DNA of 64,000 nt from Candidatus Kapaibacterium sp. (lineage in GTDB: Bacteria; Bacteroidota; Ignavibacteria; Kapaibacteriales; UBA2268): positions 62,001 through 126,000 of the forward strand of contig CALHGZ010000005.1 in the NCBI GenBank assembly GCA_938031175.1, written 5' to 3'. A model generated the notes under the pieces. It was not told the DNA's origin and did not search any database. It saw only the letters and a list, made by a program, of their open reading frames with translations. Both the position numbers and the translations under genes were made by a program. Positions 415 through 44,500 of this stretch are shown piece after piece. The stretch's first letter is position 1, and each line of letters starts with the position of its first letter.

Positions 415-990
415 TTACCTTTGTTTAGATTCCGTTATTTCTTTTAAATATGGAGATAAAATATTTTTAATTTTTTGTTTAGCTCTAAATACGCGTGTTT
501 TTGCATTGATCTCAGAAATATTACAGATTTCAGCAATCTCAGGATAAGATAAATCGTTGTATTCTCTCAAAATAAAAGCTTCGCGATAATCAAATTCAAT
601 TAAATTAAGAGCGAGATTAATCAATTCGAGTAATTCTTTACGTTCATAATTTTGATTCGCCTGGACATTAATTTGATAATTTTCTATCGGCAGAAATTCT
701 TTGCGATTCCTTTTTTGATTTAAGCATAAATTCCTGGCTATTTTCAACAGAAATCCAAGAATATTGTTAGAATTGTGATCAGGTTTGACATTTTTGTAAA
801 ACCTAATGAATGTTTCCTGGAAAACGTCTTCAGCATCTTGTTTATTGTTAAGCACCTTCATACAATAAGCATTAACGATAGGTGAATATCTTTTATATAT
901 TACATTAAATGCTGATTCAGCTTGTTTTTGATTTTCTCTCAAAAGCTTTACTAAATCACTATCCGGCATTGATTCGTAATTATTATCCAT
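415..990 (-). CDS. ECF-type RNA polymerase sigma factor
   Basis: A 191-residue sigma-70 family protein of the ECF class. Region 2 is seen around residues 30-70 (the DAEDVFQETFIRFY motif) and region 4 around 130-185 (FILREYNDLSYPEIAEI followed by a helix-turn-helix with a basic tail). There is no sigma 3 domain, as is usual for ECF factors. It directs RNA polymerase to a small set of promoters, normally when released from its anti-sigma partner, which is probably the gene 4 bases downstream. A divergent promoter-like pair (1021-1103) lies upstream, suggesting autoregulation together with control of the surface protein at 1182. It has the same length and similar region 4 as the sigma factor at 34408. 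Function class is secure; the stimulus is unknown. Confidence 0.93.
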   Translation of the reverse strand: MDNNYESMPDSDLVKLLRENQKQAESAFNVIYKRYSPIVNAYCMKVLNNKQDAEDVFQETFIRFYKNVKPDHNSNNILGFLLKIARNLCLNQKRNRKEFLPIENYQINVQANQNYERKELLELINLALNLIEFDYREAFILREYNDLSYPEIAEICNISEINAKTRVFRAKQKIKNILSPYLKEITESKQR

Positions 991-27230: not shown

Positions 27231-30200
27231 ATGAAAAGATTCTGCATTCCCTTATTTTTGATCCTTTTCTTAAATCCAAACTTAGTTAAATCTCAGGCAC
27301 CTGATATTGGATATATAATACCAGATATTGGTGCTCCAGGGATGAATATTTATCTTGAAATAATAGCTCATAATGCTCGTGGCAATGGTGTTTTCGGAGA
27401 AGATGGTTTTTATATGAATAGAAGAGGTGACGATGTTTGGATTGAGTTAATGAATTCAGCCGACTCGAATAAATTAGTTTTCGGACCTATTATAGTTAGT
27501 TGGAATGGTAGAGTAATATCAACTCAGGTTTTTATTAATCCCTATTTACAACCAAATGCAAAGTTTTGGGATGAACTTAGTGCAGAATTTCGAATTCCTT
27601 TTCGTGTTGTAGTTAATGGACAACCAACTAATGAAGTCGAATTTTATATTGTACAGCCGCAGAATCTGGGGGATGTCAGCTCAAATGCAGAACGTGTTTT
27701 AGGGGAGAATTCTTTGGGGAAGAGGTCTAAAAGAGGTGCAATGATAGTTGACTCACTTATTCTTGCTAATTCTACATATACAGTTTCGACAAATGATACA
27801 GATCCTTGGGAATTAGGAAATCAAGGATTTTTGCCGTTTATTATACTTTCACAGGGTGTAATTCGTGGAGGACAGAATACGAAAATAAGTGTCAATGGAG
27901 ATTCCGCAGTTGGAGGTTCAGCTGGTTCTGGTGGGCCGGGCGGCGGTGGCGGTGGAGGTGGTTTTTGGGATCTATTGGTTCCAAATTCGCGAAGGGGTGA
28001 TAAAGGTGGAGATGGTTTTACCGGTGGTGGTCCTGGTGGAAATAATAATGTTTTATTTGGTACTGGTCGAGTTGAACCAATTGGAATTGGATCGGGTAGT
28101 AATGGTAATAGTTTAAACGGAACAATTGGTGGTAGAGCCGCCTCAGCATGGGAAACAGCACCGGGCGGAACAGGTCATCCTTTTGGCACTTCTGGTGAGC
28201 CATGTGGTGATGGTAATAATTGCGAATTAAGTGGTGGTTATGGTGGTGGCTCTGGTGCGAAGCAAAATTTACCAGGTGGTGCAGGTGGTTATGCTACGGA
28301 TGGTGCATCCGGTACGGGTAGTAACGGTGGTAAAGTTCATGGTAATGCAATGGTTGTTCCCATAGCTGGTGGCTCAGGTGGTTCAAGTGGAAATCCGAAT
28401 GGTCAGAATGTTTTTTCTGGTTCAGGTGGAGGTGGTGGTGGTGCTTTAATTATTTTCGCTCCATTTATCCAAAATCTTGAATTATCATCCATTGGTGGTA
28501 ATGGAAAAGATGGAACGGGAAGCAGTCACGGTGGTGCCGGATCCGGGGGGTATACTGGAATTTTTACAAAGTTAGGATTCAGTAATATTAAGATGAATGT
28601 TGCTGGAGGTTATAGCCGTGCCGGAATAGGTGGAGCAGGAAGGATTAGATATGATTCTCCTACCTTTCAGGATATTTTTCTAACTTCACCAAATCAGGCA
28701 AGTAGATATAATGGTATTACAAGTGATACAAGCCGAATCGTGCCTCGTCAATTTACTTTAAAAGGGAGCAGAGCTTCAAACCGAAATATAAGAGCTTTTA
28801 TTAAACCTGAATCTGGGGTTTGGGCTGAGCTAACTGATATTGATTACAATGATCGTGAATGGTCAATTAATCTAATACTCGATAAACCTGATACATTATT
28901 TTATTTTTTTGCAATGCAGGATGTTGCGAATCCATCCACTCAAGAATACAAGTACGAGCCGGTTTATGTTATGTCTCAATCGGCAGCAAATATATTTATT
29001 GTTGATCAGTATCCGGTCATAGCTGGAGATACGTTAAAAAGATATAAAATTCTAGATTGTCGAGGATTAGAACTTTATGACACTACAAAAATTTACAATA
29101 TAGGTACTGCCGATTTAGAGATCGATTTTTTAAATGCCTTATTCGAAATAAATAATCCAGGTTGGGAACTTATATCGCCAACTAATAGAGTTACTATATC
29201 ACCTGACTCTTCAGTTGATGTGATAATTCATTGGAAAGGTAAGCCTGCAATTAAGAGTAACAGGCTCGTCATTCCTCATAATGACACTAGAGGACGGCCG
29301 AACCCTTGGATAATAGCATATATCATTGATACGTATGAATTAGAATTCATAGCTTATGATACACTCTATAAGAAAAAATTAGGTGATTTTTATCTTGGGA
29401 ATGTTTGCCCTGAGACCGAGATCTCAAGGGTATTTGCCTTTGTGAATATTATGGATAGTGCTAGTTTTACTCTTAAGCAACCAACATTTAAACTTTATGA
29501 ATCTTTTTTTGAAGCCCAAATTTTGAACAGCAATAGAGTAGCTCCAGGTGATACAGCCTGGATATTGGTAAAATTCAAAGGGGATTATGACGGAATTAAT
29601 ACATATGTAACTTCTATGGTTATAAATTTTGAGGAATGTGATGACTATTCCGAGACTGTGAATGTTTTGGTTGATATATTACGTCCGGAGATAGAAATTT
29701 TTGGAATTAATGATTTTGGAGAAATTGTCATTGGACAAACAATTCAAAGAACTTTTACAATTAAAAATAATGGTAATGGTGCGACGATAATTAATCAATT
29801 ACCTATATTATCTCCTCCATTTAGAATAGTTAGCTCTGATCCACCGATTCCACCATCATTGATTCTCGAACCTGGAAATGAATTCGAAATTACAGTCGAA
29901 TTCGAACCAACTACACTTGGTCAGAGTGAAGCAGAACTTAAAATTATTGGTTTCGCTGGTGATAGTGCTTGTAGTGATACAGCAAGAATTCAAATATTTG
30001 GATTTGGTATAAAAACCGATATTTTCGTTAATACCGACACTTTAAATTTTGGTGTTCTTGCATGGTGTGAAACCAAAGAGGATTCCATTATTGTAGTTGC
30101 CCGGGTCAAGAATTTAAAATTACTATCAGCCACTATTGAAGGTGAAAACCAAGACAATTTTATTTTCTCACAAAAACCTGATTTACCACTTGAAATTTTA

Positions 30201-32003
30201 GCCGATGATAGTGTTAAATTTCATATAAAATTTATTCCTTCAATCGGTAGCGATGGCATAAAAACTGCTAGGTTTGCATTGATTTACGATAATTACATTA
30301 AAATTGATACTATTATTGTTTATCTCTTTGGCATAAAAGAGGGCTTAAATATCACATCTGAACCACCTGTAATAGACTTTGGATCAATTGCTGTTGGTTA
30401 TGATAATGAATTAACTTTTAAATTGACAAATAATGGTTTGTTAGACAGATGGTTAAACAGGATTGAATCAAGTATTCCAGAAATAACGGTTAATCCTACC
30501 TCTTCATATTTAACCGGCAATGGTGGAACAGAAATTTTCACAATTAGCATCAATTTAAAAGAGGAAAAGCTTTATAGTGGTGTATTAACACTTTATTTTG
30601 ATATACCTTGTCTTGATACTATGAGAATCCAAATATTTGCTGAGGGATTGAAAGCTAATGTCAGTATTACAAATCCACTTGATTTTGGATTCTTAGCTCC
30701 TTGCGAAGACAAGTTAGATAGCATTATTATCAAAAATACGGGTAAAGCAGCTCTTGTTATACATGATATTAAATTATCTGGTACAGACCAAAGTGAGTTT
30801 GTCTTGTTGCCAAATTCACTTCCTGATACTTTACAGCCTGGAGAGACATTTGTTCAATTGATATTATTCAATACCAATAAGAGTAGTTATGGTTTTAAAA
30901 CAGCTTTATGCGAAATCACAGTTGAATTAAATGGTAAAGTAGAGGTGTTCAATGTTAGTTTATTAGCAAAAGCCGGTACAAACATAGACATATCTCCAAA
31001 TCCTTTAGAATTCAAATCAGTCATTGTAGGTACAGTTGTTTCAGGACAAATAACAATTAAAAATAATGGTCCATTTAGAGTTGAAATTTTGAATATATCT
31101 GATTTTAATTTGACAAATATTTTCAAAATAACACCTATAATAAGTAACATTACATTAGAACCGAATGATGCAATTGACTTTTCTATTGAATTTTTTGCAG
31201 AGGAAGATTTAGTCTATCTTGACACTCTCACTTTTGATTTTCTTGTGAATAGTTGCAATGAGCAAATGTTTTTAATTGTCAAAGGTGAAGGTATATTTGG
31301 CGATTCAGTTTATATCTGGTTTGTGCCCGATACTTTAGTCAGTCCCTCTTTGGATGAATATTATCATCCGATTTATGCAAAGAAATTGAGCAATAATTAT
31401 AATATTGAAAAATTATCCTTTACAACTGAAATAACATTTGATGCAAGCTTATTTTATCCATTGCGTTTAACGCATGGCCAGATAATATCAAATATTTTGA
31501 TATCTAATAGAAAAAGGGTTCTAAAAATAAAGCTTGATTCCGTAAATGTATTTCAGCAACCATCGATTATTACTGAAATTGTCGGTGCAACTTTACTGGG
31601 AGAAACTGATAGAACATTATTTGAATTCAAGGAATTCGAATGGATTACACGAGGAATTAGTCATACTCAACTTGACAGTGGTATGCTTCGAATTGAAATA
31701 TGTAAAGAAGGAGGAGACAGGCTTGTAAGAATGAATGTCCCATTTAGTATGATGATCAGTCCCAATCCTACAAATAGTGCCATCGAAATAAATATTCAGG
31801 CACTCGAAGTTGGTATTTATATACTTGAAATCATTAATTCACAAGGGGTTAGAGTTGAAAAATTTGAATGGCTCAGAAATCCGAGCCATAATAGTAAGAT
31901 TAATATAAAATTAGATCTATCAAAATTATCAGATGGTTTGTATTTCCTTATGCTTAAATCTCCGACAGAAACATTAGTTGATAAAATTATCTTACTAAAA
32001 TAA
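27231..32003 (+). CDS. Giant surface protein with glycine-rich region and T9SS tail
   Basis: A 1590-residue exported protein. Signal peptide about 1-22 (cleavage near VKSQ). After a conserved N-terminal domain (about 25-215), residues about 222-470 are dominated by Gly, Ser and Asn with many GGxGG units. The rest (about 610-1440) is a string of beta-sandwich repeats of the choice-of-anchor-D/Hydin kind with recurring LNFGVLAW, FGSIAVG and LDFGFLAP entries. The C-terminus (ISPNPTNSAIEIN, SDGLYFLML, IILLK) is a T9SS sorting domain. The glycine-rich stretch is far more G-rich in DNA than its surroundings. It is probably a long surface adhesin or matrix protein; a role is not known. An OmpA-family gene follows after 26 bases. 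Confidence 0.83.
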   Translation: MKRFCIPLFLILFLNPNLVKSQAPDIGYIIPDIGAPGMNIYLEIIAHNARGNGVFGEDGFYMNRRGDDVWIELMNSADSNKLVFGPIIVSWNGRVISTQVFINPYLQPNAKFWDELSAEFRIPFRVVVNGQPTNEVEFYIVQPQNLGDVSSNAERVLGENSLGKRSKRGAMIVDSLILANSTYTVSTNDTDPWELGNQGFLPFIILSQGVIRGGQNTKISVNGDSAVGGSAGSGGPGGGGGGGGFWDLLVPNSRRGDKGGDGFTGGGPGGNNNVLFGTGRVEPIGIGSGSNGNSLNGTIGGRAASAWETAPGGTGHPFGTSGEPCGDGNNCELSGGYGGGSGAKQNLPGGAGGYATDGASGTGSNGGKVHGNAMVVPIAGGSGGSSGNPNGQNVFSGSGGGGGGALIIFAPFIQNLELSSIGGNGKDGTGSSHGGAGSGGYTGIFTKLGFSNIKMNVAGGYSRAGIGGAGRIRYDSPTFQDIFLTSPNQASRYNGITSDTSRIVPRQFTLKGSRASNRNIRAFIKPESGVWAELTDIDYNDREWSINLILDKPDTLFYFFAMQDVANPSTQEYKYEPVYVMSQSAANIFIVDQYPVIAGDTLKRYKILDCRGLELYDTTKIYNIGTADLEIDFLNALFEINNPGWELISPTNRVTISPDSSVDVIIHWKGKPAIKSNRLVIPHNDTRGRPNPWIIAYIIDTYELEFIAYDTLYKKKLGDFYLGNVCPETEISRVFAFVNIMDSASFTLKQPTFKLYESFFEAQILNSNRVAPGDTAWILVKFKGDYDGINTYVTSMVINFEECDDYSETVNVLVDILRPEIEIFGINDFGEIVIGQTIQRTFTIKNNGNGATIINQLPILSPPFRIVSSDPPIPPSLILEPGNEFEITVEFEPTTLGQSEAELKIIGFAGDSACSDTARIQIFGFGIKTDIFVNTDTLNFGVLAWCETKEDSIIVVARVKNLKLLSATIEGENQDNFIFSQKPDLPLEILADDSVKFHIKFIPSIGSDGIKTARFALIYDNYIKIDTIIVYLFGIKEGLNITSEPPVIDFGSIAVGYDNELTFKLTNNGLLDRWLNRIESSIPEITVNPTSSYLTGNGGTEIFTISINLKEEKLYSGVLTLYFDIPCLDTMRIQIFAEGLKANVSITNPLDFGFLAPCEDKLDSIIIKNTGKAALVIHDIKLSGTDQSEFVLLPNSLPDTLQPGETFVQLILFNTNKSSYGFKTALCEITVELNGKVEVFNVSLLAKAGTNIDISPNPLEFKSVIVGTVVSGQITIKNNGPFRVEILNISDFNLTNIFKITPIISNITLEPNDAIDFSIEFFAEEDLVYLDTLTFDFLVNSCNEQMFLIVKGEGIFGDSVYIWFVPDTLVSPSLDEYYHPIYAKKLSNNYNIEKLSFTTEITFDASLFYPLRLTHGQIISNILISNRKRVLKIKLDSVNVFQQPSIITEIVGATLLGETDRTLFEFKEFEWITRGISHTQLDSGMLRIEICKEGGDRLVRMNVPFSMMISPNPTNSAIEINIQALEVGIYILEIINSQGVRVEKFEWLRNPSHNSKINIKLDLSKLSDGLYFLMLKSPTETLVDKIILLK
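27890..28660 (+). repeat. Glycine-rich coding repeat region
   Basis: Within the 1590-residue protein gene, short GGT/GGA-rich units recur without an exact period. They encode GGxGG, GSGG and GTGS motifs over about 250 residues. It is a low-complexity coding repeat, locally G-rich in an otherwise AT-rich window. Confidence 0.8.
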
Positions 32004-32029
32004 TTATAAAAAATTAAAGTGAGACCTTG

Positions 32030-34153
32030 ATGAAAGATATTTTTTGCTTTTTAATACTTTTAACGAGCTTTAACATTTTGTTAGCCGATGACAAAGAGCC
32101 AATATACTACTGGGGAGCATACTTAGGGTATAACTATAATATACATTTTGCTGATTTTCAACAATTACCTGAAATACCTTCCTGTTGTCCTAAATACACA
32201 AACGGTGATGGAATTGGATTTTCTTTAGGAGCCTTATTCGAAAGACCGATAAATAGAGCAGTTAGTCTCAGCGTTAGGCTTGGTTACTCGGTATTGAATG
32301 CAATTTTGGTTGAGGATGAATACTCGATCGGCAATACTTTAGTCTTGAACAATAACAATCCTATTATAACAGATATAAGTGTAAAACATAAGTTAGATTC
32401 TAAACTCAGTCTGATCGGGATTGAACCTGCCGTTGAATTCAAGTTTTTTAGGGATTTATATATGACAGCGGGTTTCAGATTTGGTTATCTGATAAATGCA
32501 AAAGTTGATCATTCTGAAACAATTATATATCCTGATAATGTTGTATTCTTAGATGGTAGGCGAATAAGAAATGATATTTATAACCGTGAAATACCAGAAA
32601 GAAAAGATTTTCACTTTTTTGGACTTTTCGGACTAGGCTATCAATTCTCAATCGGTGAAAAAACGTTTCTAGAACCTGAATTACGATATTTTATACCATT
32701 TATCAATATTAGCAATGTAAATTGGAAACCAGCTTCTCTTCTTATGGGACTTGCCATTAAATTCCCCATATACGAAGAAAGAAAGTTACCAGTTATTGAA
32801 GATATTATCTTTGAACGTGATACAACAATTATTGCAGTATTAGGGATAAGCGAACCTAAGCTAAAATTAATGGATGAAAGCATACGATATCGAAAAGATA
32901 CAACTGATGAAGCTATATTCAGCTATAAGATAATAAAAGAGCATTACGAATTGCAAATTCCTAAGGAAGCAAAAATTTTTGCCGATTTCAATATTGTGGG
33001 CATTGCTAAAGATGGAACCAAGCAAAACAATCCGATAATAATTATTGAAGAATTAGAGACAGAAGAGAGTTTTCCATTGCTTCCTCATATTTTCTTCCCT
33101 CAAAATTCTAGTGATTTACAGAAAACTGGTATGAATTTAATCAATATTGAACAAATTCATCAATTTGATGATAAAAATCTTCCTTGGAATACAATGAAAA
33201 TTTATTCTGATTTATTAAACATAGTTGGTTATAGAATGCAAAAAAATAAAAAGGCTATTCTAACCATTACTGGCTGTAATAATAATACTGGAGTAGAAAG
33301 TAATAATCTAGAATTGTCAAAAAATCGTGCTGAAGCTGTAAAAAATTATTTAACACAAGTTTGGGCAATTGAAAGTAACCGTTTAAAAGTAGTTTCGAGA
33401 AATTTACCTGAAAAACCAGCAAATAATTCAATTGAAGATGGCATTCAGGAAAATCAACGTGTTGAGTTATCTTCTAATGATCTGAGAATATTGAGTCCGG
33501 TAATGCTCAAAGAAATAGTAAGGAAATCTAATCCACCAGTAATTCAGCTTATACCACATATTAGTTCTGAAGCTGAATTAAAGGAATGGTCTATCGAAAT
33601 CAAACAAAAGAATAAACTGATAAGACAATTCAGTTCAACCGAAAAACCATTTACGTATAGTTGGATTGTTGAAGAAGAACCAATACCAGCTCTGGAAGAA
33701 AATATTGAAACTAAACTAAGTGCTTATGATATTTTAAACAATAAAGCTGAAGCCTCTAAAGACATAAATATACAACAGTTAACAATTCGCAAAAAAAGAT
33801 TTGAGATGAAGGATGATAAGAAAGTTGAAAAATATTCATTAATACTTTTCGATTATGATAAAGCAGAAATAACACCTCTTCACAGAACTATTTTAAATGA
33901 AATAAAAGATAAAATTACCCCTACATCAACTGTTAGAATTTACGGTTTTGCTGACAGGACAGGTGAAAGTCAGTATAATAAGGATTTAGCTATGAAAAGA
34001 GCTAATGAAGTGCAGAAAATTATCAAAGTTAATGAAAAAAATCTTGATATTATACCGGTCGGTAGCGATATATTACTCTATGATAATGATTTACCTCAAG
34101 GTAGAGGATATTCACGTACTGTACAAATAGAAATAGAAACACCGATAAAATAA
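32030..34153 (+). CDS. OmpA-family outer-membrane protein with two OmpA-like domains
   Basis: A 707-residue protein, started at ATG 32030 rather than the TTG one codon upstream. It has a signal peptide (about 1-20), an N-terminal outer-membrane beta-barrel-like region (about 25-245, with aromatic-rich strands such as YWGAYLGYNYNIHF), then two OmpA-like modules: a first at about 355-475 (TITGCNNNTGVESNNLELSKNRA, which keeps the LxxxRA helix) and a second at about 600-705 (RIYGFADRTGESQYNKDLAMKRA). The second looks functional for peptidoglycan binding; the first has an altered N-terminal loop. The gene follows the glycine-rich surface-protein gene after 26 bases, suggesting joint expression and a link between surface protein and cell wall. 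Confidence 0.87.
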   Translation: MKDIFCFLILLTSFNILLADDKEPIYYWGAYLGYNYNIHFADFQQLPEIPSCCPKYTNGDGIGFSLGALFERPINRAVSLSVRLGYSVLNAILVEDEYSIGNTLVLNNNNPIITDISVKHKLDSKLSLIGIEPAVEFKFFRDLYMTAGFRFGYLINAKVDHSETIIYPDNVVFLDGRRIRNDIYNREIPERKDFHFFGLFGLGYQFSIGEKTFLEPELRYFIPFINISNVNWKPASLLMGLAIKFPIYEERKLPVIEDIIFERDTTIIAVLGISEPKLKLMDESIRYRKDTTDEAIFSYKIIKEHYELQIPKEAKIFADFNIVGIAKDGTKQNNPIIIIEELETEESFPLLPHIFFPQNSSDLQKTGMNLINIEQIHQFDDKNLPWNTMKIYSDLLNIVGYRMQKNKKAILTITGCNNNTGVESNNLELSKNRAEAVKNYLTQVWAIESNRLKVVSRNLPEKPANNSIEDGIQENQRVELSSNDLRILSPVMLKEIVRKSNPPVIQLIPHISSEAELKEWSIEIKQKNKLIRQFSSTEKPFTYSWIVEEEPIPALEENIETKLSAYDILNNKAEASKDINIQQLTIRKKRFEMKDDKKVEKYSLILFDYDKAEITPLHRTILNEIKDKITPTSTVRIYGFADRTGESQYNKDLAMKRANEVQKIIKVNEKNLDIIPVGSDILLYDNDLPQGRGYSRTVQIEIETPIK

Positions 34154-34358: not shown

Positions 34359-34377
34359 AAAGAAGTGTAACTTCTTT
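34359..34377. promoter_or_regulatory. Inverted repeat upstream of second ECF sigma gene
   Basis: AAAGAAGT and its complement ACTTCTTT (8-bp arms) flank a GTA spacer. A further GTGTAAC (34365-34371) and ATGTGT-CTATAT (34386-34397) recall the boxes at 1021-1103, with 14 bases between TGTAAC and ATGTGT. It lies 31 bases before the predicted sigma start, in the only gap over 250 bases. Operator or promoter role is inferred. Confidence 0.35.
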
Positions 34378-34407
34378 ATAATATGATGTGTCTATATAAT
34401 TAGTTTA

Positions 34408-34983
34408 ATGGATAATTTAATGGCTAAAAATAACATATATAATGATTCAAACGAAAGATTAGAAGAACTTTCCAAAAGATTTAAAAAAGGAGATTTAGAA
34501 GCATATAATCTATTGTTTGAGCATTATCATACGGCAATTTACAGATATTGCCTCAAGTTGTTGGGGAATAGAGAATTAGCCAAAGATGCTTTCCAGGAAA
34601 CATTTATGAAAATGTTTGAACATAGATTTGAATTCAAAAACGGCAATTTCGGAGCCTGGTTATATAAAATTTGCCGTAACGTATGTTTAAATTTAATAAG
34701 AGGACAGAAAAAGAATGAATTATTTGACGAATTCAAACATTCTGATAATACAAATGAACTGGGAGATATAGCACTAAGCGAACAGATACACAAGGCACTT
34801 TTAATGCTGCCAGTTCAACTCAGAGAAGTTCTAATTTTAAGAGAATATAATGATTTATCATATCAAGAAATAGCTGATATTATGGGAATTGAGTTGTCAC
34901 TAGTGAAAGTAAGAATTCACCGAGCAAGAAATCTATTAAGAAAGATATTAATACCTTTGCAAAAGGAAATATATGAATCTTGA
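34408..34983 (+). CDS. ECF-type RNA polymerase sigma factor
   Basis: A 191-residue ECF sigma factor. Region 2 includes LAKDAFQETFMKMFE near 57-71 and region 4 the segment LREVLILREYNDLSYQEIADIMG followed by the recognition helix LVKVRIHRARNLLRK. The LREYNDLSY-EIA core is shared with the sigma factor at 415-990, so the two are paralogous. An ATG four codons downstream (34420) is an alternative start and would leave more leader after the promoter-like element. The 3' end overlaps the anti-sigma gene by 11 bases, which ties their synthesis together. The stimulus is unknown; the partner suggests an outer-membrane signal. Confidence 0.95.
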   Translation: MDNLMAKNNIYNDSNERLEELSKRFKKGDLEAYNLLFEHYHTAIYRYCLKLLGNRELAKDAFQETFMKMFEHRFEFKNGNFGAWLYKICRNVCLNLIRGQKKNELFDEFKHSDNTNELGDIALSEQIHKALLMLPVQLREVLILREYNDLSYQEIADIMGIELSLVKVRIHRARNLLRKILIPLQKEIYES

Positions 34984-36235
34984 TTTACTCATATCTAAAT
35001 ATATAGATGGAGAGTTAACAGAAAGCGAAGATGAAATACTTCGCGAAATGATTGCAAACCAACCCTATGCTAAAGAAGTTTTCGAAAGAGCGATAAATGT
35101 TCATTTGCTCATTAAGGAAGATTCTACTCTAACCCAAACTCCACCTGAAATAAAATCAGTTATTCGAAACTATATCATTTCGAATAATCAAATTGATAGT
35201 CAAAAATCAGAATCATTGAAAATTGTCAGATTTAATAAATTTACCAAGTTGATGCCAGTATTATTATTGTTGATAACTATTGTTTTCAGAATTGATAATG
35301 CTTCAAACGATTACACCTCCCTTAATTCAGATTCCGATAATAAATATGTACAGTTAAATTCACAGAAAGTTAAAGAAAGTCCATATAATGAGAAACCTAA
35401 AAAAATTCAATCCATATATCATTCTGGTAAAAAAGAATTACAGATTGCAAAAACAGAAAATTTACCGGAAATTATGGATTTAGACACTTACGAAAAATTT
35501 TCCCCGGCCGAACCGACAAGCGAAATAAATTTATCATTAATTGATGAAAATAACTTATATACCACCTTAAATGAGGGATTATCCTCTGGTATGCAAACTA
35601 TTTTAATTAATCCGCAAATTTCCACTATTAGGAATGAAATTAATAGTATGGAACAGATGTTTTTTAGTATATCAAATTCTAAAAATTTATCAAATTACGA
35701 TATAGTTATTAATTCATTTCTTTTTTCTGAGCTTTATTCAAGTGAAAGTAACAATCAATTAAAAGTCTTGACAAACTTATCCCAAAGTATTTCATATAGC
35801 ATAAACAACAGTGAACGAATGGGAATTGAAATAGGCTTCAGGGAGTATAGTTATAAAGAGAATTTCCTTGTTAGTATACCTATTAGTGCTTTGCCTGCAA
35901 ATGTTCAGGTAGAAATAATGGATCATAGTTCGGAAAAACATTTTACATACCAGTCGGAAGTTGAACAAATTAGAAAAATATTCTGGGGAGCTGCTTTTTA
36001 TGAATTAACTATTTTCAAAACAAATAATTTAACATTTGATGCCAGATTAGGTATTGGTAGCTCAAATGACGGTGCAATAGTTTATAACAGAATTTTATCC
36101 AAATACGAATTGATAAGTGATCTATCGCTGAATTTTGGTTTTAGTAGTATGCTATTTCAAACTAATACAGCAATATTGAATAAACAATTACAGCGGGCTT
36201 TTTCATTAACTTATGGTATTCAATTTAAATTTTAG
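34973..36235 (+). CDS. Probable dual-membrane anti-sigma factor with C-terminal barrel-like domain
   Basis: A 420-residue protein overlapping the sigma gene by 11 bases. Residues about 1-70 are an anti-sigma-type cytoplasmic domain (ISKYIDGELTESEDEIL), 92-107 a single transmembrane helix, 108-240 a polar Ser/Asn-rich linker long enough to cross the periplasm, and about 243-420 roughly eight alternating strands ending in an aromatic residue (SLTYGIQFKF), as in small outer-membrane beta-barrels. This matches the layout of the dual membrane-spanning anti-sigma factors (Dma) described in Bacteroides thetaiotaomicron. The layout is read from sequence; membrane topology and sigma binding are inferred. 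No zinc-binding HxxxCxxC motif is seen. Confidence 0.8.
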   Translation: MNLDLLISKYIDGELTESEDEILREMIANQPYAKEVFERAINVHLLIKEDSTLTQTPPEIKSVIRNYIISNNQIDSQKSESLKIVRFNKFTKLMPVLLLLITIVFRIDNASNDYTSLNSDSDNKYVQLNSQKVKESPYNEKPKKIQSIYHSGKKELQIAKTENLPEIMDLDTYEKFSPAEPTSEINLSLIDENNLYTTLNEGLSSGMQTILINPQISTIRNEINSMEQMFFSISNSKNLSNYDIVINSFLFSELYSSESNNQLKVLTNLSQSISYSINNSERMGIEIGFREYSYKENFLVSIPISALPANVQVEIMDHSSEKHFTYQSEVEQIRKIFWGAAFYELTIFKTNNLTFDARLGIGSSNDGAIVYNRILSKYELISDLSLNFGFSSMLFQTNTAILNKQLQRAFSLTYGIQFKF

Positions 36236-36364: not shown

Positions 36365-38260
36365 ATGAAGCAATATTTACATTTATTTAAACTCATTACA
36401 CTTTTAACAGTTCTTTTTATCAGTACTGTTACGTCCAAAGAACTTCTCATTAATAAGCCATATTCAGAATTAATTCCGATGTTACCAGCTAAAGATATTG
36501 TTTACAAAGGTTATGAAGATAAATTTCAGGAATTAGAATATACTATATTAGATTCACTAGCAAATTTATTCTCATTTTTCAACGATAGAACAATGCCATT
36601 TTCTTATAGTATTGAAACTGGAACTCTGATAATACTAAAGCGTGGTTACTATGATAGCCCAACTTTTACAGGTGTCAATACCAAAAATAACCTATTTTTA
36701 TTATTATCAGAAGATTGGGGTAAAAGTTGGCAAAAACCGATATTGGTTTTTGACTCTAAGAAGTATCCATTGATGGGTGGTGCAAGGTATCCAAGTGTAT
36801 ATGGTTTTAGTTATGATGATGAACTGATTGTAACTTTTTTATCACCGGGAGTAGATGAAGCTGCATCCCAATGGCGCGGATTCATTTGTGGATTTTGGGC
36901 ACAATCATTTGGTGAAATTGCGATCCAGATGAGAAATGCCCCTAAAGATTTAATCGCGTATTCATTCGGTACCGATTCAAAGATCTTAGGTGGAATAACA
37001 AAGAATAATGATCCCTTTGGAATAGCTATTACACCTGTGTCTTCACCAAATGATCCTGCTGACAATAATAATCTAGTTTGTTTAAAAAGCACCCCCGCAT
37101 TAGATTCATGGCCCCCAATATTTCCACCACAATGGTCAAGTTCGAAATTTGTAGCTGTTGATGATCTAAATTTTAGAAATAATAGCATCGTTGGACTGCA
37201 CTATGGCCCTGAAGGCAAGATGTATATGACAGCACACGGACGTTTCACCGAATCAGAAAATCCCATGAAAATAACCTCTGGTTTTTCAGTCTCAACTGAT
37301 CAAGGTGAAACTTGGTCTGAATTCAATATTTTCCCGATTTCAATTTTAAATCAATATCTTGCAACTATTAATGTCCACCCCGATAGTTGTTTTTTAAACT
37401 GGGATAGTAAGTCATCTGTCGTTTTTGACGATGGCAGTGTAAGTATAATAGTTCAATTAGATGAATTCGACCGTTCAAAATATACTGCCGATAGAGCTAG
37501 ATTAATTTTGGAATTATATTACGAAAACGGAAGCTGGGGCGTACGAAAAGTTGGCGATAAGAATTTATTCATGGTATACCGTGATGTACTTGATAATGCA
37601 GGTAATGCACGAAATCAGATCGATATTGAATTGCAAGCAGCACGAACAGTTGATGGTAAAGGACTAATAGCTAAATGGATTGTTTTAAATGATATTGATT
37701 GGGAACAAGGAACTTTCCGTTCTAGTGATTTAATTATAGCAGCAAGAGCTAAAAGCTCAAATAAATGGCAGGAATTCAGAATTACTAATGGTGATCAAAT
37801 AATCCGATGTACTTGGATACCGGACTTTATTCCAAATAATTATAGTGATGTACCATTAATACGGTTAGTTTCAAAACCTGATGAAGATGATACTGCAGAT
37901 AGTTTACGAGCCAAAGTATCTCTTGCAACAATCCCACAATATCTTTTGTTGACGCACTTTACCTTAAACTATTCCGATATAAAGGAAAATGATGTTGAAA
38001 GTAATGAGGTTTATGGAATATATCCTAATCCAGCATCTGATGAATTGACAATTAACTTTTATCTTGGGGAACCATCCTCGGTCAGAATCGAAATTTACGA
38101 TTTGCTTGGTAATAAAATTATGAACTTATATGAAAGTACATTAGGAGTTGGATTTAGAGCTGTACCATTTAAGGTAAATCAGCTTTTGTCAGGAATGTAT
38201 TTATGCACTGTGAATATAAATGGCAATATGTATACAAAAAAATTCAATGTCATTAAATAA
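36365..38260 (+). CDS. T9SS-sorted exported protein with BNR/Asp-box motifs
   Basis: A 631-residue exported protein. A signal peptide covers about 1-24. Two BNR/Asp-box-like motifs (SEDWGKSWQ near 117-125 and STDQGETWSE near 313-322) suggest a beta-propeller of the sialidase-like fold, but the catalytic sialidase residues cannot be identified, so no enzyme role is claimed. The end (IYPNPASDELTI, IYDLLGNKIM, LSGMYLCTV, KKFNVIK) is a T9SS sorting domain. It has a strong ribosome-binding site and a candidate promoter of its own. It sits between the anti-sigma gene and a TonB-dependent receptor, and may be part of that envelope module. Confidence 0.83.
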   Translation: MKQYLHLFKLITLLTVLFISTVTSKELLINKPYSELIPMLPAKDIVYKGYEDKFQELEYTILDSLANLFSFFNDRTMPFSYSIETGTLIILKRGYYDSPTFTGVNTKNNLFLLLSEDWGKSWQKPILVFDSKKYPLMGGARYPSVYGFSYDDELIVTFLSPGVDEAASQWRGFICGFWAQSFGEIAIQMRNAPKDLIAYSFGTDSKILGGITKNNDPFGIAITPVSSPNDPADNNNLVCLKSTPALDSWPPIFPPQWSSSKFVAVDDLNFRNNSIVGLHYGPEGKMYMTAHGRFTESENPMKITSGFSVSTDQGETWSEFNIFPISILNQYLATINVHPDSCFLNWDSKSSVVFDDGSVSIIVQLDEFDRSKYTADRARLILELYYENGSWGVRKVGDKNLFMVYRDVLDNAGNARNQIDIELQAARTVDGKGLIAKWIVLNDIDWEQGTFRSSDLIIAARAKSSNKWQEFRITNGDQIIRCTWIPDFIPNNYSDVPLIRLVSKPDEDDTADSLRAKVSLATIPQYLLLTHFTLNYSDIKENDVESNEVYGIYPNPASDELTINFYLGEPSSVRIEIYDLLGNKIMNLYESTLGVGFRAVPFKVNQLLSGMYLCTVNINGNMYTKKFNVIK

Positions 38261-38319
38261 GATTATGTTATGTCAAACAATAAATTAATTTAACCTTTGT
38301 GGTTAAAAGGAGAACTACT

Positions 38320-41300
38320 ATGCAAAAATCAATTTTTACAATTTTATTGTTTCTCATTATAAACTGCTTTACACTCGAAGCTAGTATATACGGAGTGCTC
38401 AAGGGTAAGGTGGTTGATAATGAAGGCAATCCAGTTATAGGAGCATCAATATTAGTTGAAGGTACCAATCGTGGAACATACGTAAAGGAAAGAGATGGAA
38501 GTTTTACAATTGTAAATATTGTGGCGGGTAAATATACCATATTGGTAAGAGCCGTTGGTTTTGCTGATTACAGAGCGGAAGTATTTATATCTGCTGATCA
38601 AACTACAACGATTAATGTTAAAATGTTGCCCAAAGACATTGCATTACAAGAAATTGTTGTCCGCGATACAAGACTTGTTGACAAAACAGCTATAGGGCCA
38701 GTAAAATCAGTAAAATCGGAGGATATAACTAATATACCTGTAACAAATGTCCAAGCAGTAGTAGGCTATGAAGCTGGAGTTTTTAATGCTGCCGGAGGTT
38801 ATAACATACGTGGAAGCCGAACAACAGAAACACAAATAAAAGTTGATGGTGTTGACGTTGGTAATCAATTTACAGGTGGATTTGGTATAGGTGGCTTAGC
38901 ATATACACCAACGATCTCTCGCTTAGCTGTAGAGGAAATGCAAGTAATAGTAGGAAATTTTTCAGCTGAATATGGCAATGCTCTCGGTGGAATAGTTAAT
39001 ACTATTGCCAAAACTGGTCGAACTGATAGATATGAAGGATTCTTCTCCTGGCAAACAGATGTTGAACCTCTTTATGGTTCCCAATCCAAAGGCATACAGG
39101 TTATTAGAGAAGGAGACAGGGGCAAAGTAATTGAAGGTGGACCTGGTAAGAAAGCTCTAAGTACACAGGAAAATTTATTTGAATTCGGATTTGGTGGACC
39201 ACTTCCATTACTGGACAGAAGCACATTTTTCATATCAACAAAATACCAATTCGAAAAATACCGCGGTGCCAGTTATGAAATATATGATCCACTTGGTAAT
39301 AATTTAAGTAGAATGCCGCATAATGGGACTTGGGTAAGAAATATCACTGGTCGTATGAGATTTGGCATATCAAGTGATATAAGTTTGATTCTTGGTGGTT
39401 CTTATGGAGTAACAAGTTATGAGACATCTGCATTGGGCTGGCTTTATGCAAATGATGAAGGTATTTTCTATGATACAAGTGCAACAGGTGAAATAACAAC
39501 TCGCTATAATGGCATTCCAGAAAGAATGGCAAAACAAAACGTAGGCAATCAGTTTGTAACGAATATAATGGCTAGAATTAATCATACACTAAGCTCGAGC
39601 AGTTTTTATGAGTTTACAGTATCATTTAATACAAATAGTGATGAAATCGCCCGAAGAACAAGTTATGGTGCACCAAATTTCTTCACCGGATTTGATCTAC
39701 TTATTCCACAAGATAACTGGAGATTTACAGGTGTGAGAATCGAACCCGGTAAAGATAGAGTTGTTGATTATTATCAATCTTTATCAATGCTGCAAACAAC
39801 CAAAGACGGGTATTTACCTGATAAAGATATACTTCAACCTAATCCATTTACTGGTTATATCGAAACAGGTATTAACACAACTGGAACAAATAATGCCTGG
39901 GGGTTAGCCAATACATTTGTAACCCATGGTTCAGTAGGATTTTCATTCAGAAATGGGAATTATTGGCAATTAGATGGAGCTTATACCAACGTATTTCAAA
40001 CAAGTGAATTTTCTCATAATTTCAAAACAGGATTCGAATTACGTTTATACACCATGAGACTGCATTCTAATGGAAATCCAACAAGTGACGAGCCATTTTA
40101 TGATGTTTATTCCGATCGATGGGGTGGAAATATCTATGCTGAAAATGAAGAAGTTTATAAAAAAACAAGTCAGCCACAAACACCTACCCGATTGGGTCTA
40201 TATGTTCAGGATCAAGTTACTTATAAAGGCATAATTTTCACTCCCGGACTAAGGTTTGATTATTTCAATCCAAATTCAAAATATAGATTACCATCGCAAA
40301 CATTCATACCAATAACTGCAGATACAGGATTTGCTGATGCCCCGGCAAAAGTACAATTCAGTCCAAGAATAAATGTTTCTTACCCAATAACAGAACGTTC
40401 GCTAATAAGGATTAATTATGGAATTTACTTCAAAATGCCAGATCTGCAATACTTTTATGATGGATTTTATAAGTTTAGTTTAAGAGGTAATGAATTACTA
40501 GGAGAACCAAATTTGGATGTAGAAAGAGCAAATTCATATGATATTGCGTATAGCAATCAGTTGAGTGATGATTTTGCATTTGATGTAAATGCTTATTATA
40601 AAGATATATATAACCAGCTTGGTATCCAATATGTCGCAACAACACCAACACCATATTTCCAATATACTGTAGCTGAATATGGAAATGCTAAAGGTTTGGA
40701 ATTTTCATTAAGAAAACGTGCAACACCTCAAGATCATTTTGGATTCAGAGCTAATTACACTCTTTCTTCTGTTGTAGGTACGTCAACGGCTTCTGGTAGT
40801 AATTATAATCCACCGACAGATCCTTTCACTGGTGACCTGGTGCTACCATTAGTACCATATCCTCTTGGCTATGACAGGACTCATACCGCAACACTTATTC
40901 TCGACTTTATTTGGGGCGACAACCAAGGTCCTTCAATTGGAGGTGTAAAATTTTTACAAAATACATTTATTAATTTAACGGGTACCTTTAGTACTGGAAC
41001 CCCATATACAAGATTTGAACCAGGCGGAAAAGCAATTAGCGAAATAAATGCTGAACGAAATCCTTCACGCTGGAATATAAATGCAAAAATTACGAAACGA
41101 TTCTTAATGAAAGATATATTTGGTGAAGCAGCAGGAAGGTCAGCAATTGATTTATTTGTGGATATATTAAATTTAACGAATCGATTTGCTCCTTTATCTG
41201 TATATAATACTTCAGGCGATCCTGACGATAATAACATCAGCTTAAATCGCAGACCAGGAGATTTTGGAAGTATTCCATTTTATCGAGAAGCAAATTATGG

Positions 41301-41505
41301 CATTGCGGAAACTTATAACGTTACCCAGTATGACTCATTCGGAAATAGACTGTATAATGAATTATCAGATCACGACCGTAACGGTGTAGTTACTCAATAT
41401 GAAAAATATGAAAGCTATATGCGATATATAGAGACGCTACTTTCATTCAGAGGTCTTTACAGCTTCCCCAGACAAGTTAGGTTCGGTATATTAATTAATT
41501 TTTAA
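38320..41505 (+). CDS. TonB-dependent receptor with carboxypeptidase-regulatory-like N-terminus
   Basis: A 1061-residue outer-membrane receptor. I start it at ATG 38320, preceded by AAGGAG; the GTG seven codons earlier has no such site. Signal peptide about 1-22, then a carboxypeptidase-regulatory-like domain (about 22-112; GKVVDNEGNPVIGASILVEGTN), a plug domain with YNIRGSRTTETQIKVDG near 160-175, and a 22-strand barrel to the end, finishing RQVRFGILINF. A clear SusC name is not given because no SusD partner is adjacent. With the next two genes (1530-residue exported protein and PorV/PorQ-like barrel) it forms a probable operon; the imported or exported ligand is unknown. Confidence 0.92.
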   Translation: MQKSIFTILLFLIINCFTLEASIYGVLKGKVVDNEGNPVIGASILVEGTNRGTYVKERDGSFTIVNIVAGKYTILVRAVGFADYRAEVFISADQTTTINVKMLPKDIALQEIVVRDTRLVDKTAIGPVKSVKSEDITNIPVTNVQAVVGYEAGVFNAAGGYNIRGSRTTETQIKVDGVDVGNQFTGGFGIGGLAYTPTISRLAVEEMQVIVGNFSAEYGNALGGIVNTIAKTGRTDRYEGFFSWQTDVEPLYGSQSKGIQVIREGDRGKVIEGGPGKKALSTQENLFEFGFGGPLPLLDRSTFFISTKYQFEKYRGASYEIYDPLGNNLSRMPHNGTWVRNITGRMRFGISSDISLILGGSYGVTSYETSALGWLYANDEGIFYDTSATGEITTRYNGIPERMAKQNVGNQFVTNIMARINHTLSSSSFYEFTVSFNTNSDEIARRTSYGAPNFFTGFDLLIPQDNWRFTGVRIEPGKDRVVDYYQSLSMLQTTKDGYLPDKDILQPNPFTGYIETGINTTGTNNAWGLANTFVTHGSVGFSFRNGNYWQLDGAYTNVFQTSEFSHNFKTGFELRLYTMRLHSNGNPTSDEPFYDVYSDRWGGNIYAENEEVYKKTSQPQTPTRLGLYVQDQVTYKGIIFTPGLRFDYFNPNSKYRLPSQTFIPITADTGFADAPAKVQFSPRINVSYPITERSLIRINYGIYFKMPDLQYFYDGFYKFSLRGNELLGEPNLDVERANSYDIAYSNQLSDDFAFDVNAYYKDIYNQLGIQYVATTPTPYFQYTVAEYGNAKGLEFSLRKRATPQDHFGFRANYTLSSVVGTSTASGSNYNPPTDPFTGDLVLPLVPYPLGYDRTHTATLILDFIWGDNQGPSIGGVKFLQNTFINLTGTFSTGTPYTRFEPGGKAISEINAERNPSRWNINAKITKRFLMKDIFGEAAGRSAIDLFVDILNLTNRFAPLSVYNTSGDPDDNNISLNRRPGDFGSIPFYREANYGIAETYNVTQYDSFGNRLYNELSDHDRNGVVTQYEKYESYMRYIETLLSFRGLYSFPRQVRFGILINF

Positions 41506-41536: not shown

Positions 41537-44500
41537 ATGATAAATTCAATGCAAAGAACTATAATTTATTCCTTATTTCTATTGCTAATTTTTTCTGTAA
41601 ATCTATTATATGGAAGAATTAAAGAACCAAGTGGCAAAGATGAAGGATCTGATGAAATATTAAGAAAGCCAACTAAGGTTTATGATTTGCAGAAAAATAC
41701 AGTTAGTAACATTGAATTCTATACAACAAACTATGGAATATTTGGTTTGAATGTAGAACGTAGCGAAGGTGGAGGTTACTGGCCTCGTGGCAGTCAAAAT
41801 CAATATATATTTGGTGGTGGTTTTTGGTTTGGTGCAATTAAAAATCGCCCTGATACAAATATCGAAAAGAAATACGTTGTGTTATCCTATAATCCCAATA
41901 GCGGACGTTCCTGGTTTGTACCTGGTAGGATTGAAGATGGCTGGAATCTTGTAGATGATGATGTCTATAAATACCGTACTTACTTCTCAACTGATATGAT
42001 TGTTTCCGATGGTACTCCTATTGACAAAGCGGACGGACCCAATTGGCCAATATGGGATACAAGCGATGATCCAAAAGATACTTTGAAAAAAAACAGATAT
42101 TTCGGATATTATGTCCAAGACGTAAATGATAGAAACTTAACTAAATATCCAAAAGGACCGGCATTTATCTCTGGCGAAGATATATTTGCTACTTATAAAG
42201 ATACTGACTTAAATGCAATTGAAGGAGGACGCAGTCGCCGGGCTGCAGAGGGATATCCACTTCAATTACAGGTTGAACAAATGATTTATTCCTGGGGATT
42301 TGGCGATTACAAAGATTTTATCTTCATTAAATATGATATCATAAATTACTCCAATGATACTTTGAAAAATTGCTGGCTTGCTACCGTGATGGATATCGAT
42401 ATAGCAAGAAGGGGTAATTTGCAACTTGGGGCACGCAATGACCGTGTAAGATTTTATGAAGAAGATCCATCTTTGAATCTTGCTTTCCAATGGACAAACC
42501 CAGACCAGGGCGAAGCCGGTCGTGGCTTCGGGTATCTTGGTTTTGTTTTTCTTGAAAGTCCAGCTGTTTATAAATTTTATGATACAGTGATAGTAACTGA
42601 CAATCAAGGTAATCCTATAGATACAATATATCAAGAAGTAATCAAGCCTGAAACTAATTTCCTAAGAAAAGATAGTAGCTTCTATTCACATAGCTCGCAA
42701 CTCGGACTTGTAACATTCAGGAACTGGCCAATTGAAATTGATCCACAGGGTGATGAGGAGCGTTATGACTTTATGGCATTGGGTCAAAGAGAAGGAGATA
42801 CAGGTCCAGGTGATAAAAGATTTTTAATGGCTACTGGTCCATTCAATATGCGGCCAAAAGACACTGCCAGAACAGTTGTCGGCGTTATACTTGCTAATAC
42901 AGCCTTGGGTGGTGATGCAACCGGTACGAGCGAGGATGTTGCATTATTGATTGCCAGAACAAATTTTGCACAAAAGGTATATGATAATAATTTCCAAGCA
43001 CCAGCACCGCCCATCAGAGCAATTATTGTTAATCCTGACGATAGAAATAGAAAGCCTGCATTGCAACCATTCAAGCCATTGAATAATGCAATAATGATTG
43101 CTTGGGATTCGACATCAGAAATTTCTACTGATATTAATGAACGCGGACTTGACTTTATGGGTTACAAACTTTATCGTGCAAGACGTTCAAACCTGGATAC
43201 TTTTAATATTGATAACATAACTCCGGGCTCTAATTATACAAAAGGTGCAGGACCTTTCGGCTGGAGACAACTGGCTCAATGGCAAATCCCCGTACCATTT
43301 GAAAAATCCGTTTATACAGCTGGATATAGAGATAATGAGGTAAAAGATTTGTTTATTGATTCATTGAAGATTGTGGGCTTAGTGCCTGATCCGAGTAATT
43401 GGATAACTGGATTGGATGAATTTGCAATAAAAGTTATGGCTGTTGGGCGAGGTGTTGTTATTCTACCTGATTCACTAGCACAGAATTATAATTTCAATAC
43501 TACACCAAATCCAAGATTAAAAGATGCTGTTGTTTCACCCGTAATTATGTTGATTGATACTGGATTGATAGCTGAACCATGGGGTAAGTATTATGCTGAA
43601 TTAGCAAAAGATCTTGAATTTCCTATCAAAACCTATCCAAATCCACCAAAGCATTATTTATTTGATAGCGTCCTAATAGGAACAATATATTTAAACCGTG
43701 CCAATCTCGATTACAATCCTTTATTCTATCAACGAAAAACCGTAAGGGTTGTTAAAGATTATGTTAACCAGCTTCCTACAAATGGAATTTTTGCAAGAGA
43801 TGTTGTCAATCCTAATGATTCCACAAAGTTCATTAAAGTTATTGATTCGGTTTATAAAATAGATAGTTATCGCTCAATAACAGTAAATAATGCCACTTCA
43901 TATTATATGGATGTATTATATCCGAGACATCGTGACAGCATTTTAACTGATAGAGCACACATTGCTGAATGTCTCGATTCGCTATATATGTTCATCAAGA
44001 AAGGTTACATAGCAAAATATGATTTGCCTGATTTTTCTGGTTCTGATAGAGCTAAAAATGATGTTATTTTACCCTATTTCAAACGAGTTGCAAATAACAG
44101 AACATACCTTGATATAGGTGATGTAGATATGGATGCCGTTGTCAAATACGATCCTGACCCCAAGAAGACAGAAAAAATTATCAATAATGTTGACTACTAT
44201 TATATGCTTTTATCCTATGATGAAGGGGACTTTTTACAACCCACAGGTTCTAAGGTAAATGATGCATCGGAAGGAACTACAAATTTTGCTAAAACTTATG
44301 CATTAGCATCTCCGGTGCAAAAAGAACCAACATTCGAAATCACTTACATTGACACCAATTTAATTGGTGGTTTGTATAATTTCAGATTATTTGGTATCAA
44401 TAACGACAGAGTCCGTGAGCTTTTTGCCGGTCATGAATTTGAATTGGAATTCAAACCTTCATGGAATTTATCCCGTTTGACAATCAATTTCGATTCGACC

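Follow-up and report, generated by a model that had tools for sequence, protein, structure and literature searches.

A predicted dual-membrane anti-sigma factor family of Kapabacteria, linked in relatives to genes for type IX cargo and TonB

Introduction

How might the state of the outer membrane be reported to the transcription machinery by a single polypeptide? The question is raised by a pair of overlapping genes in a genome of Candidatus Kapaibacterium, a genus placed by the NCBI taxonomy in the class Eximiradiia of the Bacteroidota, which encode an ECF sigma factor and an anti-sigma factor that ends like an outer-membrane protein. In Escherichia coli, the anti-sigma factor RseA, which acts on sigma-E together with DegS, carries an inner-membrane helix and is linked to the state of the outer-membrane proteins. 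The family described here would resemble RseA in joining an inner-membrane-helix anti-sigma factor to outer-membrane protein state, but it differs in that the outer-membrane-protein-like C-terminus belongs to the anti-sigma chain itself. An anti-sigma factor lodged in both membranes could allow the outer surface to signal straight to the genes.

Dual membrane-spanning anti-sigma factors (Dma) are known from Bacteroides. In the published account of Dma2 (PMC13088901), the protein is described as consisting of an N-terminal anti-sigma domain, a transmembrane helix, a disordered tether, and a barrel, as being encoded adjacent to an ECF21 sigma factor, and as occurring only in Bacteroidota. Here we present a computational analysis of the locus, which lies in a 64,000-nucleotide stretch of DNA referred to as the window, and of its relatives. 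The best reading of the data is a dual-membrane anti-sigma family of Kapabacteria that lies outside the described Dma/ECF21 group, is autoregulated and, in relatives of the window genome, has links to the genes of type IX cargo and of TonB.

Results

The sigma/anti-sigma locus

Listed in Table 1 are the features of the locus and of its surroundings. The gene pair at 34408-36235, first noticed in the initial annotation, is real, and the overlap proposed there is borne out by the coordinates of the open reading frames, which share 11 bases (34973-34983). Overlaps of 11 or 14 bases are also found in most relatives.

Table 1. Features of the window discussed in the text.
Feature	Position	Strand	Details and basis
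Paralogous ECF sigma factor (L039/L111)	415..990	-	
Barrel-type anti-sigma factor of the L039/L111 sigma factor	1-410 and beyond window start	-	modeled
OmpA-family protein, N-terminal barrel	32027..34153	+	Pfam OmpA 1.2e-23
Predicted ECF-type promoter of the sigma/anti-sigma operon, TGTAAC-N17-TGTCT	34366..34393	+	exact match
ECF sigma factor gene	34408..34983	+	191 aa; Pfam Sigma70_r2 3.5e-16, Sigma70_r4_2 4.8e-17; sigma tree
In-frame alternative ATG of the ECF sigma factor gene	34420	+	
Anti-sigma factor gene, dual-membrane layout	34973..36235	+	420 aa; ORF, hydropathy, AlphaFold2
N-terminal anti-sigma domain, residues 1-72, four helices	34973..35188	+	AlphaFold2
Transmembrane helix, residues 91-107	35243..35293	+	hydropathy peak; AlphaFold2 helix 94-106
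Disordered tether, residues 108-243	35294..35701	+	low pLDDT; low identity
Predicted eight-stranded outer-membrane-type barrel, residues 244-420, C-terminal YGIQFKF	35702..36232	+	AlphaFold2 strands; VIA-align
BNR-type protein with type IX secretion tail	36365..38260	+	PF18962 8.2e-13
TonB-dependent receptor with CarboxypepD-like domain	38299..41505	+	Pfam

Predicted structure of the anti-sigma factor

The model of the anti-sigma factor was calculated with AlphaFold2 from an alignment of 31 sequences (A1), comprising the window protein, 29 proteins from other genomes, and one paralogue from the same genome. The N-terminal domain is predicted to contain four helices (residues 3-12, 17-29, 31-53, and 58-70), with block pLDDT values of 84-95 for residues 1-50, falling to 64-69 for residues 51-70. 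The single hydrophobic peak of the chain, at residues 91-107, coincides with a modeled helix (94-106) of modest confidence (blocks of pLDDT 55-65), and the model supports the sigma-binding-type domain and the one transmembrane helix of the initial annotation. A linker of about 130 residues had likewise been anticipated, and 135 residues were counted between positions 107 and 243; the block pLDDT across residues 111-240 is 34-42. For the C-terminal region, "about eight" amphipathic strands with an aromatic end had been expected, and the model contains exactly eight, lying within residues 244-419 ahead of the C-terminal sequence YGIQFKF. The structure prediction that had been put forward as a check of this region thus returned a barrel. 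Its block pLDDT is mostly 80-97, with values of 77, 59, and 75 over residues 301-330, and the overall pTM of the model is 0.46.

The top Foldseek match of the barrel is to a model of OmpA (E 3.9e-6). With VIA-align, matches to small outer-membrane proteins range from Z 17.2 to 15, with NspA, OprF, and OmpA at 16-17. The leading four are tied within a Z of 1: a Legionella T4SS-associated porin (Z 17.2, rmsd 3.7, 157 aligned residues), NspA (Z 16.9, rmsd 2.7, 142 aligned), OprF (Z 16.5, rmsd 2.3, 120 aligned), and a designed barrel (Z 16.3, rmsd 1.7, 115 aligned). All but one of the fold matches listed are restricted to the barrel. Rows for PsbO and avidin in the same lists were read as generic barrel matches. 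On the basis of the eight strands and of these matches, the barrel of the initial annotation is supported as a prediction; the chain combines, as modeled, an eight-stranded barrel with a C-terminal residue of the outer-membrane protein type. No Pfam family covers the anti-sigma factor, the matches at E <= 0.01 being to five families with one A1 member each among the 31 sequences, and a profile of the protein found no match among PDB sequences at E <= 1. Taken as a whole, the modeling supports a four-part layout of sigma-binding-type domain, transmembrane helix, disordered tether, and outer-membrane-type barrel.

Conservation of the layout

Matches to the anti-sigma factor at E <= 0.01 were found in 82 of the 149 genomes searched, the window genome included, so that the layout is more than a chance arrangement. 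Median pairwise identities within A1 are 43% for residues 1-72, 12% for the linker, and 27% for the barrel, and the linker, variable in sequence, is 130-224 residues long and never shorter than 130. The N-terminal side of the helix is more positively charged than its C-terminal side in 30 of the 31 sequences. This pattern of length, identity, and charge is typical of a chain with a cytoplasmic N-terminus in which a tether has to keep a minimum length between an inner-membrane helix and a barrel. At the threshold used, a second hydrophobic segment is absent from all 31 members. Every one of them ends with F, L, Y, or M (F in 21) and contains a YG pair within its last ten residues.

The modest pLDDT of the transmembrane helix bears on a different reading, in which the helix is removed like a signal peptide, or the chain undergoes constitutive cleavage, such that barrel and anti-sigma domain become two separate proteins and no span of both membranes exists. 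An AxA sequence near the helix end, found in five of the 31 sequences, makes signal-peptide-like cleavage conceivable for some members. It is lacking in the other 26, however, the approximately 90 residues that precede the helix are unlike a signal peptide, and the tether is kept at a length of at least 130 residues. We consider such separation highly improbable, and infer that the anti-sigma factor reaches through the two membranes simultaneously.

A profile of 24 sequences, with the paralogues of the window genome among them, matches 200 of 395 genomes of the phylum. Among the matches listed, those that extend from end to end all come from the same order as the window genome, and those outside the order mostly cover the N-terminal domain, often in open reading frames of approximately 160-300 residues. 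The 29 named relatives come nearly all from metagenome-assembled genomes labeled Kapabacteria, Ignavibacteria, or Bacteroidetes, with a few under other labels. Outside the order, four longer anti-sigma-like proteins of approximately 400-750 residues (L112, L113, L114, and L115, from G131, G140, G125, and G144, respectively) adjoin ECF sigma genes and belong to other families of the class; their ends are either outer-membrane-protein-like or of another kind, and they are possible outgroups.

Comparison with the Dma proteins

The initial annotation regarded the protein as a distant relative of the Dma anti-sigma factors. The layout is indeed the same: both are four-part proteins with one domain order, and Dma1 and Dma2 share with the window family a partner gene for an ECF sigma factor and are likewise present several to a genome. 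DUF4943, which was used to locate Dma2-type loci, was found in three of 296 genomes, and a sigma/anti-sigma pair lies beside it in two of these (G356 and G349), no such adjacent pair being present at the third locus (G236). Relatives of the Dma2-type protein were found in 100 of 148 genomes. A second Dma-type set adjoins NigD-like genes and is probably Dma1. In the Dma2 orthologue L108, the helix lies at 49-70, after approximately 45 residues, whereas the window protein has its helix at 91-107 and, accordingly, a longer N-terminal domain. The families further differ in that the motif-linked genes in relatives of the window genome encode type IX cargo and TonB/ExbD proteins, those reported for Dma being nigD1 or PULs, and in that the window family occurs in Kapabacteria.

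For HMM comparison, a deep Dma-type profile of 42 sequences was assembled, 24 of which were added by HMM match alone. The HHalign probability for the N-terminal domain against this profile is 1.5; with the helix included it rises to 66, the aligned part then being largely helix. An HMM of the N-terminal domain did not match any of the 42 Dma-type sequences at E <= 1. The barrels align with a probability of 75 over 134 columns with their C-termini in register, or 51 with an ortholog-only alignment. With a shallow Dma2 profile the probability was 2.7; in light of the deeper comparisons, we do not claim that the barrels are unrelated. In control alignments against the barrel of the OmpA-type protein encoded upstream, the Dma barrel scored 95 and the window-family barrel 0.3, which indicates that scores of such magnitude arise between different barrel proteins.

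The Dma profile (A4) matches 63 of the 395 phylum genomes and none in the order of the window genome, and, among the matches listed, neither family is recovered at full length with the profile of the other. A tree of 33 sigma factors was calculated with 11 sequences from the window genome, 10 from orthologous loci, four others, and eight of the Das1/Das2 type, which stood in for ECF21 and of which the Das1 assignment was made here. The window family and its paralogues group at 93/81, just under the starred level and with one member of the class outgroup inside, and the Das1/Das2 sequences group apart at 100/100 on a stem of 2.0.

Could the window protein nonetheless be a true, very distant Dma, descended from one ancestral dual-membrane anti-sigma factor of the Bacteroidota, with a diverged N-terminal domain and sigma factor and, like Dma1 and Dma2, acting on vesiculation? 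The shared domain order, with a helix in L108 and an OMP_b-brl Pfam match in the Bacteroidia Dma2 orthologues, the in-register barrel alignment, and the placement of both families in Bacteroidota under the current NCBI definition all speak for such descent. Against it stand the N-terminal comparison, the absence of A4 matches in the order of the window genome, the separate sigma clades with Das1/Das2 on a long stem, and the score of the Dma barrel with the OmpA-type barrel of a different protein. On this balance we judge common descent unlikely. Of the original suggestion, then, the Dma-like layout stands, and kinship found no support in the N-terminal domain or the sigma factors; only the barrels leave room for a remote relationship. 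The window anti-sigma factor may well work like a Dma, with an N-terminal domain and a sigma factor that, by sequence, fall outside the Dma and Das1/Das2 groups.

Paralogues in the same genome

PF08281 was found at 16 places in the window genome which, when sorted by eye, comprise eleven ECF sigma-like genes and five other regulators. Eight of the eleven, that of the window included, are followed by a gene for a protein of 380-423 residues with one helix near residues 90-120 and an outer-membrane-protein-like end. The seven further pairs lie on contigs C2, C1, C4, C5, and C10 of the genome (G000; L033, L035, and L038-L042), a within-genome expansion. Two of the eight barrel-type anti-sigma factors were modeled, namely the window protein and the paralogue at the window start. 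The latter is predicted to consist of four helices, a transmembrane helix at 88-111, a disordered stretch, and a barrel over residues 223-379 with ten strand segments, two of them short. Its best eight fold matches, with Z values of 16.4-14.5, are to small outer-membrane barrels and a designed one.

When built without the paralogues, an N-terminal profile matched L041, L042, L040, and L039 (E <= 3e-6), matched L033 and L035 weakly, and did not match L038. A barrel profile built in the same manner matched L038 (3.8e-5) and L040 (1.1e-3) and none of the remaining paralogues. Given these weak or absent matches, barrels in the other six paralogues are presumed from their layout only.

A conserved promoter motif

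Upstream regions of the sigma gene were compared at 27 of 30 loci (the window and 29 others), L015, L021, and L022 being omitted because the sigma start is cut off or unclear. In 20 of the 27, including the window, the motif TGTAAC-N17-TGTC begins 39-75 bp upstream of the annotated sigma start. It is absent upstream of the sigma gene in L006, L009, L013, L020, L028, L029, and L007, the last of which is partly masked; at the same spacing, L006, L009, and L013 have TGTTTC and L020 has TGTAAT. This conserved promoter ahead of the sigma gene is new here. The sigma/anti-sigma operon is predicted from it to be autoregulated, and it is by way of this predicted autoregulation that the sigma factor is tentatively paired with TGTAAC-N17-TGTC.

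A strict pattern, TTGTAACTT-N15-TGTCTT, has 47 exact sites in 26 of 54 family genomes, as compared to two for the reversed control. Spacers of 10-13 gave five sites in total across the 54 genomes. A spacer one base shorter (N14) is enriched, with 25 sites, the reversed controls for the five shorter spacers together giving 16. This enrichment suggests that a paralogous sigma factor may share the promoter code and perhaps reads the N14 version.

No strict-motif site is present in the window genome. The looser motif has two exact sites there, one at the sigma operon and the other inside a long open frame of the opposite strand with no open reading frame after it. At up to one mismatch, 44 sites were counted against 59 for the reversed control and hence no excess; of 18 of these 44 sites that were examined, only one, the exbD2 site, preceded a gene. 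It has one mismatch and lies between exbD1 and exbD2 of the genome's own exbB-exbD-exbD-tonB set (L152, G000:C1 near 145436). Since the one-mismatch search amounts to noise, the proposed regulon described below rests on the relatives.

Genes linked to the motif in relatives

Eleven of the 47 strict sites precede sigma genes of the window family, three of these having been assigned by position at known loci, and one (in G009) lies near a contig end, where no open reading frame was found. Each of the other 35 is followed within 300 bp by an open reading frame of at least 50 codons. The downstream genes of 29 of these were scanned against Pfam (L212, L215, L216, L230, L239, and L240 were omitted), and PF18962, the type IX tail, was found in 22, two of the matches being weak (E 0.004 and 0.0075). 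The remainder encode a transglycosylase (L218), a CarboxypepD protein (L206), an ExbD (L219), and TonB proteins (L232 and L238), with no Pfam match for the genes at L208 and L210. When grouped by eye, 17 of 23 ortholog groups bear PF18962 (p = 4e-10, under an assumed 15% baseline that is a guess). For comparison, PF18962 has 108 places in the whole window genome. Type IX tails are common in these genomes, 12 of 15 having at least 150, with 201-353 candidates. SprA_N is present in all 15 genomes tested. The motif stands ahead of type IX tail genes in relatives, and was not seen there in the window genome with either the strict or the looser search.

By genome, the exact strict sites ahead of such genes are those of G008 (ExbD) and of G035 and G050 (TonB), and a strict site in G044 is likewise linked, by sequence likeness, to a gene of the TonB/ExbD type. 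Counterparts of the window genome's own exbB-exbD-exbD-tonB genes bear exact strict sites in relatives. From these sequence associations it seems that, in the relatives, the sigma switch controls proteins sent to the cell surface.

Neighboring genes and cell-surface signaling

The initial annotation described the downstream genes as all encoding envelope proteins. This holds for the first two (Table 1); for the third, at 41537-46129, Pfam returned nothing at E <= 0.001. Neighbors were surveyed at 28 of the 29 named loci (L067 was omitted), in several genomes shared with the motif survey. The immediate downstream gene carries a type IX tail, as judged with an HMM built here, at 14 loci and a truncated look-alike at three, and resembles a TonB-dependent receptor, by eye, at 11. 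In the window, both a tail gene and a receptor gene are present in series. An OmpA-family-like gene, recognized by length and C-terminus, lies upstream at nine of the 28 loci and in the window, where it is probably a separate transcript. The gene at 27231-32003, further upstream, encodes a 1590-residue protein that carries a type IX tail and contains HYDIN/ASH-type Ig domains as well as a stretch rich in glycine.

The proximity of sigma, anti-sigma, and TonB-dependent receptor genes in the window recalls FecIR systems, and TonB-dependent transducers that bind anti-sigma factors have been reported (PMC11637429). A receptor as the actual sensor, with the barrel doing nothing more than docking the anti-sigma factor beside it, would agree with such binding, with the 11 of 28 loci at which a receptor-like gene comes next (it is second in the window), and with the promoter borne by TonB/ExbD genes in relatives. 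The next gene has a type IX tail instead at half of the loci, however, and the Pfam list of the window receptor contains no STN-type signaling domain. FecR is not matched by the window anti-sigma factor, nor is it among the five families that match members of the 31-sequence alignment, an absence from Pfam alone. The window locus differs from FecIR systems in that the anti-sigma factor itself bears a predicted outer-membrane barrel. Signaling of the FecI/FecR type appears quite unlikely to us.

Discussion

We consider it probable, if well short of certain, that the locus encodes a dual-membrane anti-sigma factor that releases its ECF sigma factor upon a change in the state of the barrel, in an autoregulated circuit that extends in relatives to type IX cargo and TonB/ExbD genes. 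The N-terminal helical domain would hold the sigma factor in the cytoplasm, the single helix would cross the inner membrane, the disordered tether of 130 or more residues would traverse the periplasm, and the eight-stranded barrel would sit in the outer membrane. Should the barrel fail to insert or change its state, the anti-sigma factor would let go of the sigma factor, most likely through being cleaved, as the biology of RseA and DegS suggests. Once freed, the sigma factor would act at the TGTAAC-N17-TGTC promoter to transcribe its own operon and also, in relatives, the genes for type IX cargo and the TonB/ExbD system. By analogy to DegS and RseA of E. coli, the outer-membrane-protein-like end of an uninserted barrel might double as the distress signal, in which case RseA and its ligand would in effect be fused in one chain.

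A bolder proposal, possible but on the whole doubtful, is that dual-membrane anti-sigma factors arose at least twice in Bacteroidota and became the main type of ECF partner in Kapabacteria (eight of the eleven here), with the barrel directly gating transcription of type IX cargo and TonB/ExbD genes and its uninserted end serving as the signal. If the origins are independent, the tethering of a transcription switch to the outer membrane evolved more than once.

ECF sigma factors have been tied to type IX secretion elsewhere in the phylum. SigP of Porphyromonas gingivalis is reported to be autoregulated and activated by PorX within the SigP-PorXY system (PMC7712824), and a second such connection is formed in Flavobacterium psychrophilum by its SM6 ECF promoters (PMC9723704). 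Both cases are reported for genes of the secretion machinery, whereas the motif of the window family precedes cargo genes, for which an outer-membrane-anchored regulator is proposed here, and its sigma factor is partnered by a barrel-bearing anti-sigma factor. In the literature searched, no paper was found that joins Kapaibacteri* with type IX secretion.

The promoter code, the predicted gene set in relatives, and the natural variants of tether and barrel make the question of what is sensed a testable one. Among the variants, the linkers of L022 and L021 consist in part of short tandem repeats, of the PQSV type in L022 and the NNSAM type in L021, as if the length of the tether evolved by repeat number.
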